From a virus, in IMG/VR virus record IMGVR_UViG_3300010883_000185, positions 1 to 34,246 of that record: a DNA stretch of 34,246 nt, one strand, 5' to 3'. Shown piece by piece: positions 22,542 through 34,192 of the stretch. Every line of letters starts with the position of its first letter. Position 1 is the first letter of the stretch. Made by a program: the position numbers and the translations under genes. Under the pieces are notes generated by a model that was given only the letters and a program-made list of their open reading frames with translations, was not told the DNA's origin and did not search any database.

Positions 22542-22962
22542 TTCTAAACTTCTCCAATTCTTTTAATAACTTCTTGCGCTTTTTCTCTGACTCTGGGTTG
22601 GGGAACCACTTAGCTTCGTACATGAGATACCTGCTCCATAGAGTCTTGGTTTTCTCATCCCCTCTTATACTTACGTACCAGTATATATCTGGGCGATCAG
22701 TATTGGGTTTGTAATAATCAAAGCCTGCGACAAAGTATTTTATGTGCACGGTTCTATCATTCATATCTATACAAGTTTTTATGGCACATAATATTTCATG
22801 TGTATCATATTTTACCTGTAAAGACTTTATCGCTTTGAGTTCAAGCCCAAAGAAAGTCGTGGAGGTGTATGCCCTACCAAACTTTGCTTGATATAACACA
22901 GCAAACCAGTCAAAAAGTTCTTTACTGGTATAGTCATTTATTTTCTTGCCTTGTTTGACCAA
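22471..22962 (-). CDS. Hypothetical 163-residue protein upstream of the helicase
   Basis: The start seems to be TTG at 22962 with GGGAG just upstream; no in-frame ATG occurs nearby. The N-terminal part is a mixed helical domain (YTSKELFDWFAVLYQAKFGR, THEILCAIKTCIDMNDRTVH, YFVAGFDYYKPN) and the C-terminal third is a charged helix (PESEKKRKKLLKELEKFRNA). The helical N-terminus and location before the DnaB-like helicase resemble helicase loader or replication-initiator accessory proteins; this is only inference. It overlaps the sigma factor gene by 29 bases. Confidence 0.62.
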   Translation of the reverse strand: MVKQGKKINDYTSKELFDWFAVLYQAKFGRAYTSTTFFGLELKAIKSLQVKYDTHEILCAIKTCIDMNDRTVHIKYFVAGFDYYKPNTDRPDIYWYVSIRGDEKTKTLWSRYLMYEAKWFPNPESEKKRKKLLKELEKFRNAQTKKGEPSTSEVSKIWSEETK

Positions 22963-23503
22963 GTTGCTCCCTTACTTTCTGCTTTATCTGCTTATTTAGC
23001 CTGTATACCCCTTTTATACCTAGGGATTCCCCTAATTCCTTCATGGAGTACCCTTGCATCCTAAGCTTAATGAATTTCTTCTCCATAGATGATAACTCAA
23101 AGTTCTGGAGCATGTCAACCATTTCAATATCTAATGTGTCATCTGTATTATCTGTAAGTCGTGCTTCAACCTCTTCAGCCATATCAACAATTGGCATTGC
23201 TCTATGGTGCTTCGCAGCTTTTGTAATCAGGGTGCTTGCGGTATTCATTAATGTTTTGTATAGATAGGTATGGAATATTACCCCTGAATCTTCTCTGTAC
23301 CCTTTAGCAGCCTTCATTACACCAATTCGTAATTCTTGAACAATGTCGGCGTAGTCCATACCTATAATAGAGACGTTTCTAGCTACTTTATGTACTTGGG
23401 GTTCCCACTGCTTAATTAAATCATCATCAATCTTCATATCCACCATCGCTTTCGCTTTCAATTGCCTTGTCTTTTCTAAAGCATTTAATGGTGCAGTATG
23501 CAT
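22934..23503 (-). CDS. Phage sigma-70-family factor
   Basis: The product is about 189 residues. Sigma region 2 is recognisable (numbering from the upstream GTG: about 34-100, IIGMDYADIVQELRIGVMKA, then AKGYREDSGVIFHTYLYK), and a region 4 helix-turn-helix follows (about 138-185, LSSMEKKFIKLRMQGYSMKE, then GESLGIKG). Region 1.1 and region 3 are missing, as in small alternative sigma factors. It should bind host core RNA polymerase and redirect it to phage promoters, probably late ones. Start choice is uncertain: GTG 23512, ATG 23503 (AAAGG upstream, used here) or ATG 23437, which would cut the overlap with the zinc-ribbon gene to 11 bases. Confidence 0.82.
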   Translation of the reverse strand: MHTAPLNALEKTRQLKAKAMVDMKIDDDLIKQWEPQVHKVARNVSIIGMDYADIVQELRIGVMKAAKGYREDSGVIFHTYLYKTLMNTASTLITKAAKHHRAMPIVDMAEEVEARLTDNTDDTLDIEMVDMLQNFELSSMEKKFIKLRMQGYSMKELGESLGIKGVYRLNKQIKQKVREQLGQTRQENK

Positions 23504-23852
23504 TCTTGGCACCTTTCCTTTTTTCTGCTATAATTCTAGCACGTTTCCTATAAAAAGGCAACCCACACCAGCCACAATTTAGTTTAATTGTATAGTGCTG
23601 GAACCGGTGTCGGCTACCACAAAAAGTCTGTGTGGGTACAATGGAGGTGGAACAATCAAAATACCTACAATACTTGACGTTCTTTAAACGGTGCGGTGTC
23701 GTCTCAAGCTCCTGTTCGACTAGAAGCTGATAGACCCGTTGGTAGGATAAGCCTTTATAATTCCGTTTCTTGTTTAGGAGGGTGGTAAGTTCTCGTATGC
23801 TGGCATAGGGATACCTAATGCGAGCCTTCCGTACATGTAGGGCGGGGCGCAT
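23427..23852 (-). CDS. HTH protein with two zinc-ribbon-like modules
   Basis: This 141-residue basic protein begins with a helix-turn-helix-like segment (about 14-46, YPYASIRELTTLLNKKRNYK, then LSYQRVYQLLVE). Two zinc-binding modules follow: C62-x4-C67-x10-C78-x3-H82 and C93-x2-C96-x23-C120-x3-C124. Arg/Lys residues are abundant, so DNA or RNA binding is likely. It sits directly upstream of, and overlapping, the sigma factor gene and is probably a regulator of phage gene expression; a role as sigma co-activator or repressor is inference. The ATG at 23852 directly follows the upstream stop. An HNH nuclease was considered, but no HNH catalytic histidines are seen. Confidence 0.75.
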   Translation of the reverse strand: MRPALHVRKARIRYPYASIRELTTLLNKKRNYKGLSYQRVYQLLVEQELETTPHRLKNVKYCRYFDCSTSIVPTQTFCGSRHRFQHYTIKLNCGWCGLPFYRKRARIIAEKRKGAKNAYCTIKCFRKDKAIESESDGGYED

Positions 23853-30014: not shown

Positions 30015-31694
30015 TTAGTACATTGAACTCAAGTAAGATAACATTTTATCATTTGCAACATTACTTGCGTCTCGAATTTCTTCTTGGGCTAGTTTCTCTG
30101 CGGCAAGGGCGAGGTCGCTGTTTTGGGCCATTGTAACTGACGCTAATTGGAGAGATATAGCAGCTTCTTTACTCTTTATTGCAGCGTCCCCCATTGCTTT
30201 GGCATCTTGGGCGAACAGGTTTAGGAAAGCATCAAAGCTCATACCTCCTTGACTACGTTCTACAGCCCTTTCTGCCTCTAATGCGAAACTCTGATCCAAG
30301 AAAGCTCTTGTTCTGTCGCTCATCTCGGTCGCTGTCGTCTCCATTATTCCAGTAGTGTCTACAAACTGGTTTTTACTTTGTGTAGCCCCTTCTACCATAG
30401 TAGCTCCCGCTTCGGAGACTTTAGTTTTCCATAGTGCTGCTGCCTTATCAGTGGCCTCTGCCTGTTTTTGTAGGGCCATAGCTGATGCGTCGGTTCCGGT
30501 TAGAAGTAGGTCATAGCCACCGATCTGGGCACCTGTTGCTTTAGCAATATCGGATACCCAAGTATTTGAAGCCGCCATAATAGCATCTTGAGATTCGATC
30601 TGCCTTTGTATTGTAGCGTCTGTACCAGTTTGAATTAAGCCAGTCATGTCAAGAACTGTCCCCGGCAAAGCGGTAGCGAGCTTGCTAAATTCTTCAGTCA
30701 CGGCAACAGCGGTGGGGTTTAGTTGTGCCATTACCTCCTCAAGGGCGGCTACTGGTGGTACGAGTTCGGTTTGCACGGCATCCGTAAAGGGTTGGATAAG
30801 CCCACTCATGGATTCATTTAAGGTGCCTCCTAGTTGGCTAGCTTGTGAAGGTAGGTATCTTTTCCCTGCTTGACCAGATATATCTATAGCGCCTTCTGCG
30901 TTATCACCCTTGTCTTTGTTCTTAAATATTGCCCAAATTGCGGTTCCTACTACAGCGATAACAGCAATAGCAATCATTATTATCTTAGCATGGGGTATCA
31001 TCATGAGCATGCTCATGGCTCCCTTTGCCATACCTCCCCCTGCCTTCGCACCGGCAGATTTTGCTCTATGCATTACCAATAACTTTCCTACAGAGGCGGT
31101 AATCATTTTTCCCATACCGATATATTGCCCAACCTTCAGGAAGGCAAGCATTCGCGGAAGGACATATGCGGCTACAAGTATCTGTTTCCAGATTGGGGCA
31201 AGCTCAGAGAACCAACCGACAACCGCTTTGAGTTGCTCCCAAGCACCCATGAGTGGTGGTTTAACATACTCAACGAACTCAACTATTTTTGCCCACAAAT
31301 CTCCCACTTTAAGAGCTAATTCCTCACCCAGCCTGCGGGCAACAGGGATAAATTTAGATAGGTGTTCTACTATAGCGAATAGCTGAGGAGCGAATGATAG
31401 TAGGAAGGAGTCCAGAATAGCACCCAATACTTGGAATACCGCACCTAGAAAACCTGTGGCAATTTGGGATTGCCTGAGCATAGCAGCAAAAGTAACCTGA
31501 ATACCTAACACACTAGTTAGCACCTTACCGATACCACCTACGATACTCTTTTTTTCCTTTTTTCCCTCGCCCGTAGAGCCTTGTTCTGTTGTGCTCTTTC
31601 CTGCTTCCCCTGAGCTTTTCCCTACACTTGACCCATCCGCCCCACCCATGTTAGCCATGGCTTGTCTAAATTCAATAATCGTTGTGTCAGCCAT
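30015..31694 (-). CDS. Tape measure protein (short)
   Basis: This 559-residue protein follows the tail assembly chaperone and precedes distal tail genes, as tape measures do. The N-terminus is polar and Ser/Gly/Lys-rich (to about residue 50). Hydrophobic helices follow (IGKVLTSVLGIQVTFAAMLR, FLGAVFQVLGAILDSFLLSF), and a strong membrane-like span occurs near 240-255 (IIMIAIAVIAVVGTAIWAIF). The C-terminal 250 residues are long amphipathic helices rich in Ala, Gln and Thr. Tape measures set tail length and help DNA cross the host membrane. At roughly 0.15 nm per residue the tail would be about 80-85 nm; this is an estimate. ATG at 31694 has AGGAGG. Confidence 0.82.
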   Translation of the reverse strand: MADTTIIEFRQAMANMGGADGSSVGKSSGEAGKSTTEQGSTGEGKKEKKSIVGGIGKVLTSVLGIQVTFAAMLRQSQIATGFLGAVFQVLGAILDSFLLSFAPQLFAIVEHLSKFIPVARRLGEELALKVGDLWAKIVEFVEYVKPPLMGAWEQLKAVVGWFSELAPIWKQILVAAYVLPRMLAFLKVGQYIGMGKMITASVGKLLVMHRAKSAGAKAGGGMAKGAMSMLMMIPHAKIIMIAIAVIAVVGTAIWAIFKNKDKGDNAEGAIDISGQAGKRYLPSQASQLGGTLNESMSGLIQPFTDAVQTELVPPVAALEEVMAQLNPTAVAVTEEFSKLATALPGTVLDMTGLIQTGTDATIQRQIESQDAIMAASNTWVSDIAKATGAQIGGYDLLLTGTDASAMALQKQAEATDKAAALWKTKVSEAGATMVEGATQSKNQFVDTTGIMETTATEMSDRTRAFLDQSFALEAERAVERSQGGMSFDAFLNLFAQDAKAMGDAAIKSKEAAISLQLASVTMAQNSDLALAAEKLAQEEIRDASNVANDKMLSYLSSMY

Positions 31695-31702
31695 GATTCC
31701 TC

Positions 31703-32271
31703 CTATTTATTATACGCGGCCATTTCTTTTTCTTTACTGATGAGTTCAAAGGTTAGGATTAATTCGATTTGATCTGCTGATAAAGAATGTATTGCGTCCC
31801 AAGGTATACCTAGTTTCAGCAGAGATAATATAGTCCACCAAAGTGAGTATACGTAGGCTTCACCAGCATCCAGATTATTAGTTAACCCATCTGCGAAAAG
31901 CCTTATTCTTTTTTTAGCGGAACAGCGTCCCCTGCTTCAAATGCAGATGGTATAATGTCTTCTAGGGCTTTACCTAGCTGTTGATCTATACTCATTAAAA
32001 ACATATCGTTTGTAACTCCCCATGGAGCTTCAACAACCATGGCTTTTATGGTTTCTCTCATATATGTATCCATATCAAAGCCTACTGTGCCACCAACATA
32101 AGTATAACAAGAGGAAACTAACTTATTCTTCGCTACATACCCTAAGTCCTTAACTCCTAAGACAAGCTCATCCTCATCCTCTCCTACTTTTACAGTTATC
32201 TCGCGAACGGATGCTTTTACCTGATATTTAGTCCAATCGAACGATGCCTTTGCTTTGCTCTGTGCTGTCAT
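31703..32271 (-). CDS. Tail assembly chaperone, frameshifted long form (gpGT-like)
   Basis: A -1 slip at A-AAA-AAA (31915-31909) would join the first 121 codons of the short chaperone to 68 further codons that stay open to a TAG at 31705-31703, giving about 189 residues. The added part includes LTNNLDAGEAYVYSLWWTIL, LKLGIPWDAIHSLSADQIEL and ISKEKEMAAYNK, a helical domain like the T extension of other phages. The extension has no start codon and SD of its own and ends just before the tape measure SD, exactly as in lambda-type G/GT genes. The long form would recruit tail tube subunits to the tape measure. The slip itself is predicted, not shown. Confidence 0.8.
31709..31714 (-). promoter_or_regulatory. 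TATAAT-type box before the tape measure gene
   Basis: Minus strand CCGCG-TATAAT-AAATAGGAGG. It lies inside the last codons of the frameshift extension (Tyr-Asn-Lys), so coding may explain part of the match, and the SD starts only 4 bases after it. It is a weaker promoter candidate than the intergenic boxes; it could also serve as an A/U-rich translation enhancer. Confidence 0.28.
31856..31933 (-). promoter_or_regulatory. Programmed -1 ribosomal frameshift signal
   Basis: On the minus strand an SD-like AGGGGA (31933-31928) lies 12 bases before the slippery heptamer A-AAA-AAA (31915-31909). Six bases after it begins a possible stem: GGCTT (31902-31898) with AAGCC (31860-31856), enclosing CAGAT/ATCTG. 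Upstream SD-like sequence, slippery heptamer and downstream stem are the three parts of bacterial frameshift sites such as dnaX. The stem is modest and should be folded computationally. Confidence 0.75.
31903..32271 (-). CDS. Tail assembly chaperone, short form (gpG-like)
   Basis: The zero-frame product has 122 residues and ends KKE-stop right after the slippery run. It is an acidic soluble protein with beta strands at the N-terminus (ASVREITVKVGEDEDELVLG) and helices later (DTYMRETIKAMVVEAPWGV, ALEDIIPSAFEAGDAVPL). It follows the tail tube gene and precedes the tape measure, the conserved position of the lambda G/GT pair. The short form outnumbers the long form in known systems and binds along the tape measure before tube polymerisation. 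ATG at 32271 has AAGGAGG and lies 10 bases after the tail tube stop. Confidence 0.8.
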   Translation of the reverse strand: MTAQSKAKASFDWTKYQVKASVREITVKVGEDEDELVLGVKDLGYVAKNKLVSSCYTYVGGTVGFDMDTYMRETIKAMVVEAPWGVTNDMFLMSIDQQLGKALEDIIPSAFEAGDAVPLKKE

Positions 32272-32281
32272 TAAATCCTCC

Positions 32282-34192
32282 TTAAGGATATATGGGTGTA
32301 GTGTCCACTATCTCAATTTCTACATTACGTAGCATGATTTCCAAATCTGCTTGGATTGGGCTTGACCCATCCAAACTATACTTCGCTGACGCAATAAACA
32401 TACCTTGATTACCAAGCCCGAATGATGGACTTGATCCACTTTTGTAAGAAGGCTTAATTTTTATGTAGTCTGTACTAGAAGTAGTTAAGTCGTCCCTAGA
32501 GAATTGAATCTCAAACGACAACCCTTCGGGGGTCGAAGATGTTAGCCCGCCGTAATCACCTTCCATAAGCATCTGTTTGAAGATGCTTTGGCCTCCTAGC
32601 TCATACCCTGACTCAGAAGACCCTGCTTCACTAGCGGCTCGTGACGTAGGTTCTACAACTGTCATAGACATAGTGTAATCTCTTCGCTGATTTACAATTT
32701 CGTATGGGCCACGGAACCTGTTACCTGATTTCCCACCAATGTAATATCTGGCTTCAGGGTTATTATTTATCGAGAGGCTGAAATTACGTACTGTAGCAAT
32801 AGGTACACCAAATAAGCTTATATTTCCTTGTGTGAAGTAATACGGCTGCGTTGTGTTGCCTGTAGGGGCAGCCGACGTAATTCCATCAGATGGAACCCAT
32901 GCTTCAGTGTCTGAAATAGTCTTCATAACACCGTGTCTAGGTAGGTAGGCTGCACCCCCTGAACCTGACCAAGTGGGAGACTTTCCTTGATTATGTACCA
33001 TCCCCATAAACTGAATACCATCCCAAGACGTAGTTACTAACCCTTGCTCTTCGGCTGCTATAACCCCAGTACCTATACGCCCTCCATAATACCTTCTGTT
33101 AAAGTCATTACCAGCAGTTTCACCAGAATCCCTCATGTGGACATTCATAGCGATACTATCTAGGTCGGCAGTCTCAGTAATTGTATGCGTGTACTTTCGG
33201 GTAGCTGCTTGAGCCGCATCCATTACTACGACTGTAACTATATCCGCAGCGGCAGAACCAGAAATATGATCAAAACGTAAAGGATGAGATAAGATTATTC
33301 GTTTATTAGTGGCATCTGCAATTTTATACCCTTGAACCACTTCTTCTTTACCAGTATGGTTAATCCATATTAAATCCCTATTCGCAGCGGAGGCACCATC
33401 CAGTACAAGTGCCCCGTAGGGGTTACCGGGTGTTGACTCGTCATCAGTAGGGAGGTCTATTATTTGATCCCCTTTTCGCCAGCTAATCTCCGCTGTCGCA
33501 TGATTATACACAGCGGTACCGGTACTACCTTCGTCTTCATATAGGCTAGGGGTGGTGGTTACCTTACCGATTGCGTAACGTAGAGGCCACCCATTCAAAA
33601 GGGTCATACCTGATATAGCCCCAGAAAACGCTTGTTCTCCCCTATAGATAAAGGTAGGGCTTCGTTTTGCAGTGGAACCAAGTGCATATACCGGATTGTA
33701 AGTAGTTGTTTGATCTGCTACTTCAACTGTGTCATATATTCCCGGTACAAAACGCATAGCATTTGTGTACATTGTGGTAGCCCCTGTTCTTGCTGCGGGC
33801 CAAGAGAGGTTAATTGGGGTAGCGTGAGACGCATCCACTGATTGCACCATAGCGTTATCTACGTGGTGAAATCCGGTAGGGGCATCTAAATGAAGCACGT
33901 CTACATCAGAGGTAACATCCATTGCTACAATGCGACGAATTTCTGAGTTATACTCTCCGGGCTCAGCATCCGAATTAATGGAGTACCCAATACATATATA
34001 ATCACCAATTGCTAACTGGGCATCAGCAGCGTCAATTCTAATCGACCGTGATCCTGCTTCGTGTGCCCCAGATAAAACTGTAGCCGTGATATCCCCTTCG
34101 GCAGCACCGGTGAATGCCAGTTCGGGGTAACCACCCTCTGCGGCTTCTGTTCCAAATGTTACTAGGGCTTGATCTGAACGATAAACAGCCAT
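32282..34192 (-). CDS. Tail tube protein, enlarged with inserted beta domains
   Basis: The C-terminal third of this 636-residue protein matches the tail tube pattern: VATVRNFSLSINNNPEARYY, then the RGPYEIVNQRRDYTMSMTVV segment, a helix with IFKQMLMEGDYG, and strands ending in QADLEIMLRNVEIEIV. The N-terminus (MAVYRSDQALVTFGTEAAEG) also fits the start of tube proteins. Between them are extra beta-rich regions (about 30-120 with LAIGDYICIGY, and about 200-400), making it much longer than the usual 150-300 residues. Direct position before the chaperone/frameshift cassette supports the call. No sheath gene is visible upstream because the window ends. ATG at 34192 has AAGGAG. Confidence 0.8.
   Translation of the reverse strand: MAVYRSDQALVTFGTEAAEGGYPELAFTGAAEGDITATVLSGAHEAGSRSIRIDAADAQLAIGDYICIGYSINSDAEPGEYNSEIRRIVAMDVTSDVDVLHLDAPTGFHHVDNAMVQSVDASHATPINLSWPAARTGATTMYTNAMRFVPGIYDTVEVADQTTTYNPVYALGSTAKRSPTFIYRGEQAFSGAISGMTLLNGWPLRYAIGKVTTTPSLYEDEGSTGTAVYNHATAEISWRKGDQIIDLPTDDESTPGNPYGALVLDGASAANRDLIWINHTGKEEVVQGYKIADATNKRIILSHPLRFDHISGSAAADIVTVVVMDAAQAATRKYTHTITETADLDSIAMNVHMRDSGETAGNDFNRRYYGGRIGTGVIAAEEQGLVTTSWDGIQFMGMVHNQGKSPTWSGSGGAAYLPRHGVMKTISDTEAWVPSDGITSAAPTGNTTQPYYFTQGNISLFGVPIATVRNFSLSINNNPEARYYIGGKSGNRFRGPYEIVNQRRDYTMSMTVVEPTSRAASEAGSSESGYELGGQSIFKQMLMEGDYGGLTSSTPEGLSFEIQFSRDDLTTSSTDYIKIKPSYKSGSSPSFGLGNQGMFIASAKYSLDGSSPIQADLEIMLRNVEIEIVDTTPIYP

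Follow-up and report, generated by a model that had tools for sequence, protein, structure and literature searches.

Comparison with Described Tail-Assembly Chaperones

In tail-assembly chaperones of the G/GT class, G binds the tape measure protein, T binds the tail tube protein, and neither remains in the virion. The slip heptamer of phage lambda is GGGAAAG, where a −1 frameshift of low rate gives G over GT at 30:1. In the lambda model, many G are present per GT, and T recruits the tail tube protein (PMC5009743). Two genes of an HK97-like chaperone cluster had measured frameshift rates of 6 and 7% (PMC3711429). Furthermore, a joined tail assembly chaperone is annotated in the haloarchaeal viruses HCTV-5 and HVTV-1 (Druskaviridae; phrog_32593/35486), where it occupies the slot of the locus studied here, and their chaperones were given as −1 frameshifts in reviews (PMC8211752, PMC5009743). 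The frameshift mechanism is long known from lambda, and no new mechanism is involved in the present case. What the locus adds is a predicted chaperone gene family not recognised by sequence in Pfam or PHROGs, together with a candidate stimulator hairpin.

The window, meaning the whole stretch of DNA analysed, was the 34,246-base contig IMGVR_UViG_3300010883_000185 (positions 1 to 34,246) of an uncultured tailed virus. On its minus strand, the tail tube protein gene is followed by G/T and then by a probable tape measure gene. The tail tube gene (32282..34192) lies just upstream of G, and its product matched Pfam Phage_tube_2 (6.5e-14) and phrog_290 (8e-12). The gene just downstream (TMP, 30015..31694, minus strand) encodes a protein of 559 aa with no Pfam or PHROGs profile match; by its place and size it is probably the tape measure protein, which agrees with the gene order of HCTV-5/HVTV-1. 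The locus resembles lambda G/GT in lying between the tail tube and tape measure genes, in a predicted −1 slip towards the 3' end of G, and in a C-terminal T domain that the fusion would carry (PMC5009743). It is unlike lambda in its heptamer, A_AAA_AAA, and in that its G and T match no chaperone family in Pfam or PHROGs.

The tail tube and capsid proteins of the window are also distant relatives of those of HCTV-5/HVTV-1, and the gene order is the same, whereas the candidate slip site of those viruses is GGGAAAG and the similarity in G is marginal. The G of the window matched HCTV-5 G weakly by BLASTP (E 0.011), and hhalign gave E 0.004 but a probability of 8; T against HCTV-5 T gave E 0.11, and phrog_32593 was absent from the hmmscan results of the window G. 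An IF2_N match to T (Pfam, E 0.027, below the cut-off) was rejected as chance. IMG/VR protein and alignment scans with G, T, TMP and the tail tube protein returned a single relative contig or nothing. No relative came from GTDB genome scans, for which the tail tube and T alignments served as queries, or from tblastn of phage records with G, TMP and a 1368-aa protein. The AlphaFold model of G, built from a two-sequence alignment, had a pLDDT of 39 and was too poor for use. The initial annotation had proposed that the locus fits the G/GT arrangement of tailed phages. Slot, lengths and site geometry did match, the annotated HCTV-5/HVTV-1 chaperones included; the comparison with known G/GT families carried that far, but it did not establish sequence homology of G or T with any named family of chaperones.

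Gene G and the Extension in the −1 Frame

Gene G (31903..32271, minus strand) is predicted to encode a short tail-assembly chaperone of 122 aa in the 0 frame, with the SD TAAGGAGGA upstream. Its ATG is at 32271 and its TAA at 31905-31903, and the 3' end reads CTA AAA AAA GAA TAA. The slippery heptamer A_AAA_AAA occupies 31909..31915 (minus strand), with the TAA two codons beyond it, and this was the single in-frame copy across 21 large genes of the window. These coordinates are as the initial annotation had given them for a 122-residue gene ending just past the run.

A −1 slip at this point opens the T extension (31703..31909, minus strand), which consists of 68 codons and a TAG. The frame starts AGA ATA AGG CTT; its sense codons run from 31909 to 31706, and the last two bases of the TAG (31705-31703) are the first two bases of the tape-measure SD AGGAGG. 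Because G up to the second Lys has 121 residues, the addition of 68 codons gives a GT fusion of 189 aa, so that both lengths had been predicted correctly. In dinucleotide shuffles, an open run of 68 codons in a specified frame had P=0.004. The extension had also been thought to have no start of its own, and the first ATG, GTG or TTG in the −1 frame of the window was found only at codon 63, leaving no independent standard start. The distance between the stop of G and the start of TMP is 208 nt, the size of the false gap that had been anticipated. Gene finders left these 208 nt empty, and the annotation may be corrected by a T domain that looks coding and under selection.

Conservation and Selection in a Relative

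The IMG/VR protein search gave a sole relative, IMGVR_UViG_3300048645_000077 (L001), the only one obtained independently of the slip site itself. Between the window and L001, G was 79% identical in amino acids and T 57%. L001 retains CTAAAAAAAGANTAAGGCTNTTCG, that is, the A7, the stop two codons later and the open −1 frame. The T region showed 65% nucleotide identity without indels. Its dN/dS was 0.30 in the −1 frame, compared with 0.89 and 1.31 in the other two frames, and that of G was 0.09. In addition, the third-position excess of T had P=0.017, and when the same substitutions were placed randomly, an open frame and the observed amino acid identity occurred together in 0 of 20,000 simulations. 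On these comparisons, the T extension looks coding and appears to be under purifying selection.

The −1 frame of L001 is interrupted by a stop just 4 codons ahead of the slip point, and the 0 frame stops two codons after the heptamer; the shift must therefore take place at or next to A7. No ATG, GTG or TTG was found in the −1 frame of L001 before codon 54. The expectation that heptamer and −1 frame would be conserved in relatives was borne out in this one relative, where both are kept. In the window and in L001 alike, an intact G is accompanied by the run and by the frame, and T has no independent standard start, these being the points on which the initial annotation had made its proposal depend.

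Downstream Hairpin and SD-Like Element

A hairpin of 47 nt (31856..31902, minus strand; GGCT...AAGCC) follows A7 after a 6-nt spacer in the window, where a possible stem 6 bases downstream had been pointed out, and L001 has it at the same spacing. Its own stability was about −14 to −15 kcal/mol; for 50 nt, values of −15.0 (window) and −14.9 kcal/mol (L001) were obtained, and in each of the two sequences this places the hairpin among the 3% of segments with the highest stability. When T codons were recoded synonymously, the stability had P values of 0.038 and 0.019 for the two genomes, and the joint consensus fold had P 0.007. Fourteen of the 18 pairs of the window hairpin are able to form in L001. 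The changes between the two genomes are one-sided only, with no compensatory (double-sided) change, and because of this and the 14/18 pairs the hairpin is regarded as a probable, not a proven, frameshift stimulator. Rfam gave no match.

The SD-like AGGGGA (31928..31933, minus strand) does lie 12 nt upstream of A7, with an anti-SD pairing of −6.5 kcal/mol, compared with −0.2 kcal/mol at the corresponding place in L001. Its presence had been noted correctly, but its reading as a stimulator went too far: AGGGGA is absent from L001 and was ruled out as a conserved stimulator. As L001 has no counterpart, the element would be at most an optional stimulator.

Occurrence of the Slip Site in Other Viruses

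IMG/VR was scanned for the 16-base DNA signature TAAAAAAAGANTAAGGC, with no protein information used. The scan gave 23 loci: the L001 contig, ten loci of a second group of uncultured phages (L010, L018, L020, L021, L022, L024, L026, L028, L029 and L032), L011, and 11 others. The G/GT layout was present in 12 of the 23. About every second occurrence of the site therefore marks a tail chaperone gene, and the signature can locate the frameshift sites of such genes in unannotated viral contigs. The remaining 11 matches were taken, as judged by their frames, as chance or other contexts. Since the loci were picked by the site itself, they are uninformative on how often A7 is kept.

In the second group, which has the same slip site, a chaperone-sized ORF ends in ...LRSGLKKD, and the −1 frame has about 133 codons where complete, with a dN/dS of 0.11-0.14 at 82% identity. 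The hairpin of this group (−25 to −28) begins 6 nt past A7. L024, the locus read in detail, has a tail tube gene upstream (Phage_tube_2 3.9e-6; phrog_290 1.9e-13) and a tape measure gene downstream (phrog_934 1e-10). L024-type loci have the slip site, the hairpin spacing, the type of tail tube and the downstream tape measure in common with the window, whereas their T is about 133 aa compared with 68 codons, and their hairpin is far stronger. No match was found for L024 G and T in phage records, and tblastn detected no similarity between the G/T of the second group and those of the window.

For L011, the same slip site ends a recognised tail assembly chaperone: its G matched a PHROGs tail assembly chaperone (1.5e-6) and its −1 frame a PHROGs tail protein (5e-10) (phrog_344 with phrog_337). 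A tape-measure-sized ORF lies downstream, as in the window. However, the G/T sequences of L011 and the window are unrelated, the hairpin of L011 is weaker, and in its second frame the slip is closely followed by an ATG. The shared elements (A7, GAN TAA and GGCTT...AAGCC) might form a portable recoding cassette that is swapped among unrelated chaperone genes beside Phage_tube_2-type tail tubes, but this is unlikely. The site may equally be shared by convergence, and the second group was selected by the site itself.

Proposed Mechanism and Alternative Explanations

The locus combines a position between the tail tube and tape measure genes, a slippery heptamer close to the 3' end of G, an open −1 frame with no independent standard start, a conserved frame relation, and purifying selection on T in one unbiased relative. 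It is very probable that a ribosomal −1 frameshift here yields a G/GT tail-assembly chaperone pair of the lambda type; the slippage, its rate and the chaperone function are inferred. Most ribosomes would make the 122-aa G and stop. In a minority of ribosomes, with tRNA-Lys on A_AAA_AAA, translation would be slowed by the hairpin 6 nt downstream, and the slowed ribosomes would slip back one base and so produce GT, a fusion of 189 aa. If the lambda model is followed, the tape measure protein would be coated by many copies of G and few of GT, with the T domain recruiting the tail tube protein.

The only serious rival is transcriptional slippage, in which RNA polymerase would add one A at A7, so that GT would form one continuous frame in some of the mRNAs and the same products would arise. 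Homopolymer A runs are a known substrate of this process (PMC3711429), and A7 is uninterrupted in both the window and L001. However, both genomes also hold a structured element at ribosomal spacing, and known G/GT cases are ribosomal. Seven A's are, moreover, short for efficient transcriptional slippage, and overall this explanation has a slim chance.

T might also be translated as a small protein in its own right, through reinitiation or translational coupling past the stop of G from a non-standard codon, since it directly follows that stop and has in-frame non-AUG codons (ATA at codon 2, CTG at codon 13). These early codons are not common to L001, ATG, GTG and TTG are missing from the early part of the frame in both genomes, and the kept A7 would be left unexplained, which makes this reading very improbable. 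An assembly or sequencing indel within the A-run of one continuous gene is the least credible possibility of all: A-runs are typical indel sites, but L001 is a different virus (65% nucleotide identity in this region) in which both A7 and the relation of the frames are the same, and the site also occurs in unrelated families. Ribosomal frameshifting accordingly stays the preferred explanation.

Other Features of the Two Genomes

Besides the tail genes, the products of the window include an SU10-like capsid protein, portal, terminase, PolA, RecA/UvsX, primase, helicase, ribonucleotide reductase and a sigma factor. The last of these is suggestive of a bacterial host, in contrast to the haloarchaeal HCTV-5/HVTV-1. 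The capsid (1185-2588) and the tail tube protein (32282-34192) had haloarchaeal viruses as their sole matches among phage records, the capsid also matching a Methanofastidiosa virus, whereas the bacterial-type sigma factor (22934-23512) and PolA lie on the same contig.

L001 shares PolA (81%) and the tail module with the window. The major capsid protein of the window had no match in the 33 kb contig of L001, which may reflect a module swap or the end of the fragment. Early in the probable tape measure gene of the window, two nearby in-frame A_AAA_AAG heptamers (31547-31563, minus strand) form another possible slip site. In L001, a 420-aa protein built from short repeats (e.g., VDATGTIGRAITRLIS) is encoded upstream of the tail tube gene (L001:1388-2650).
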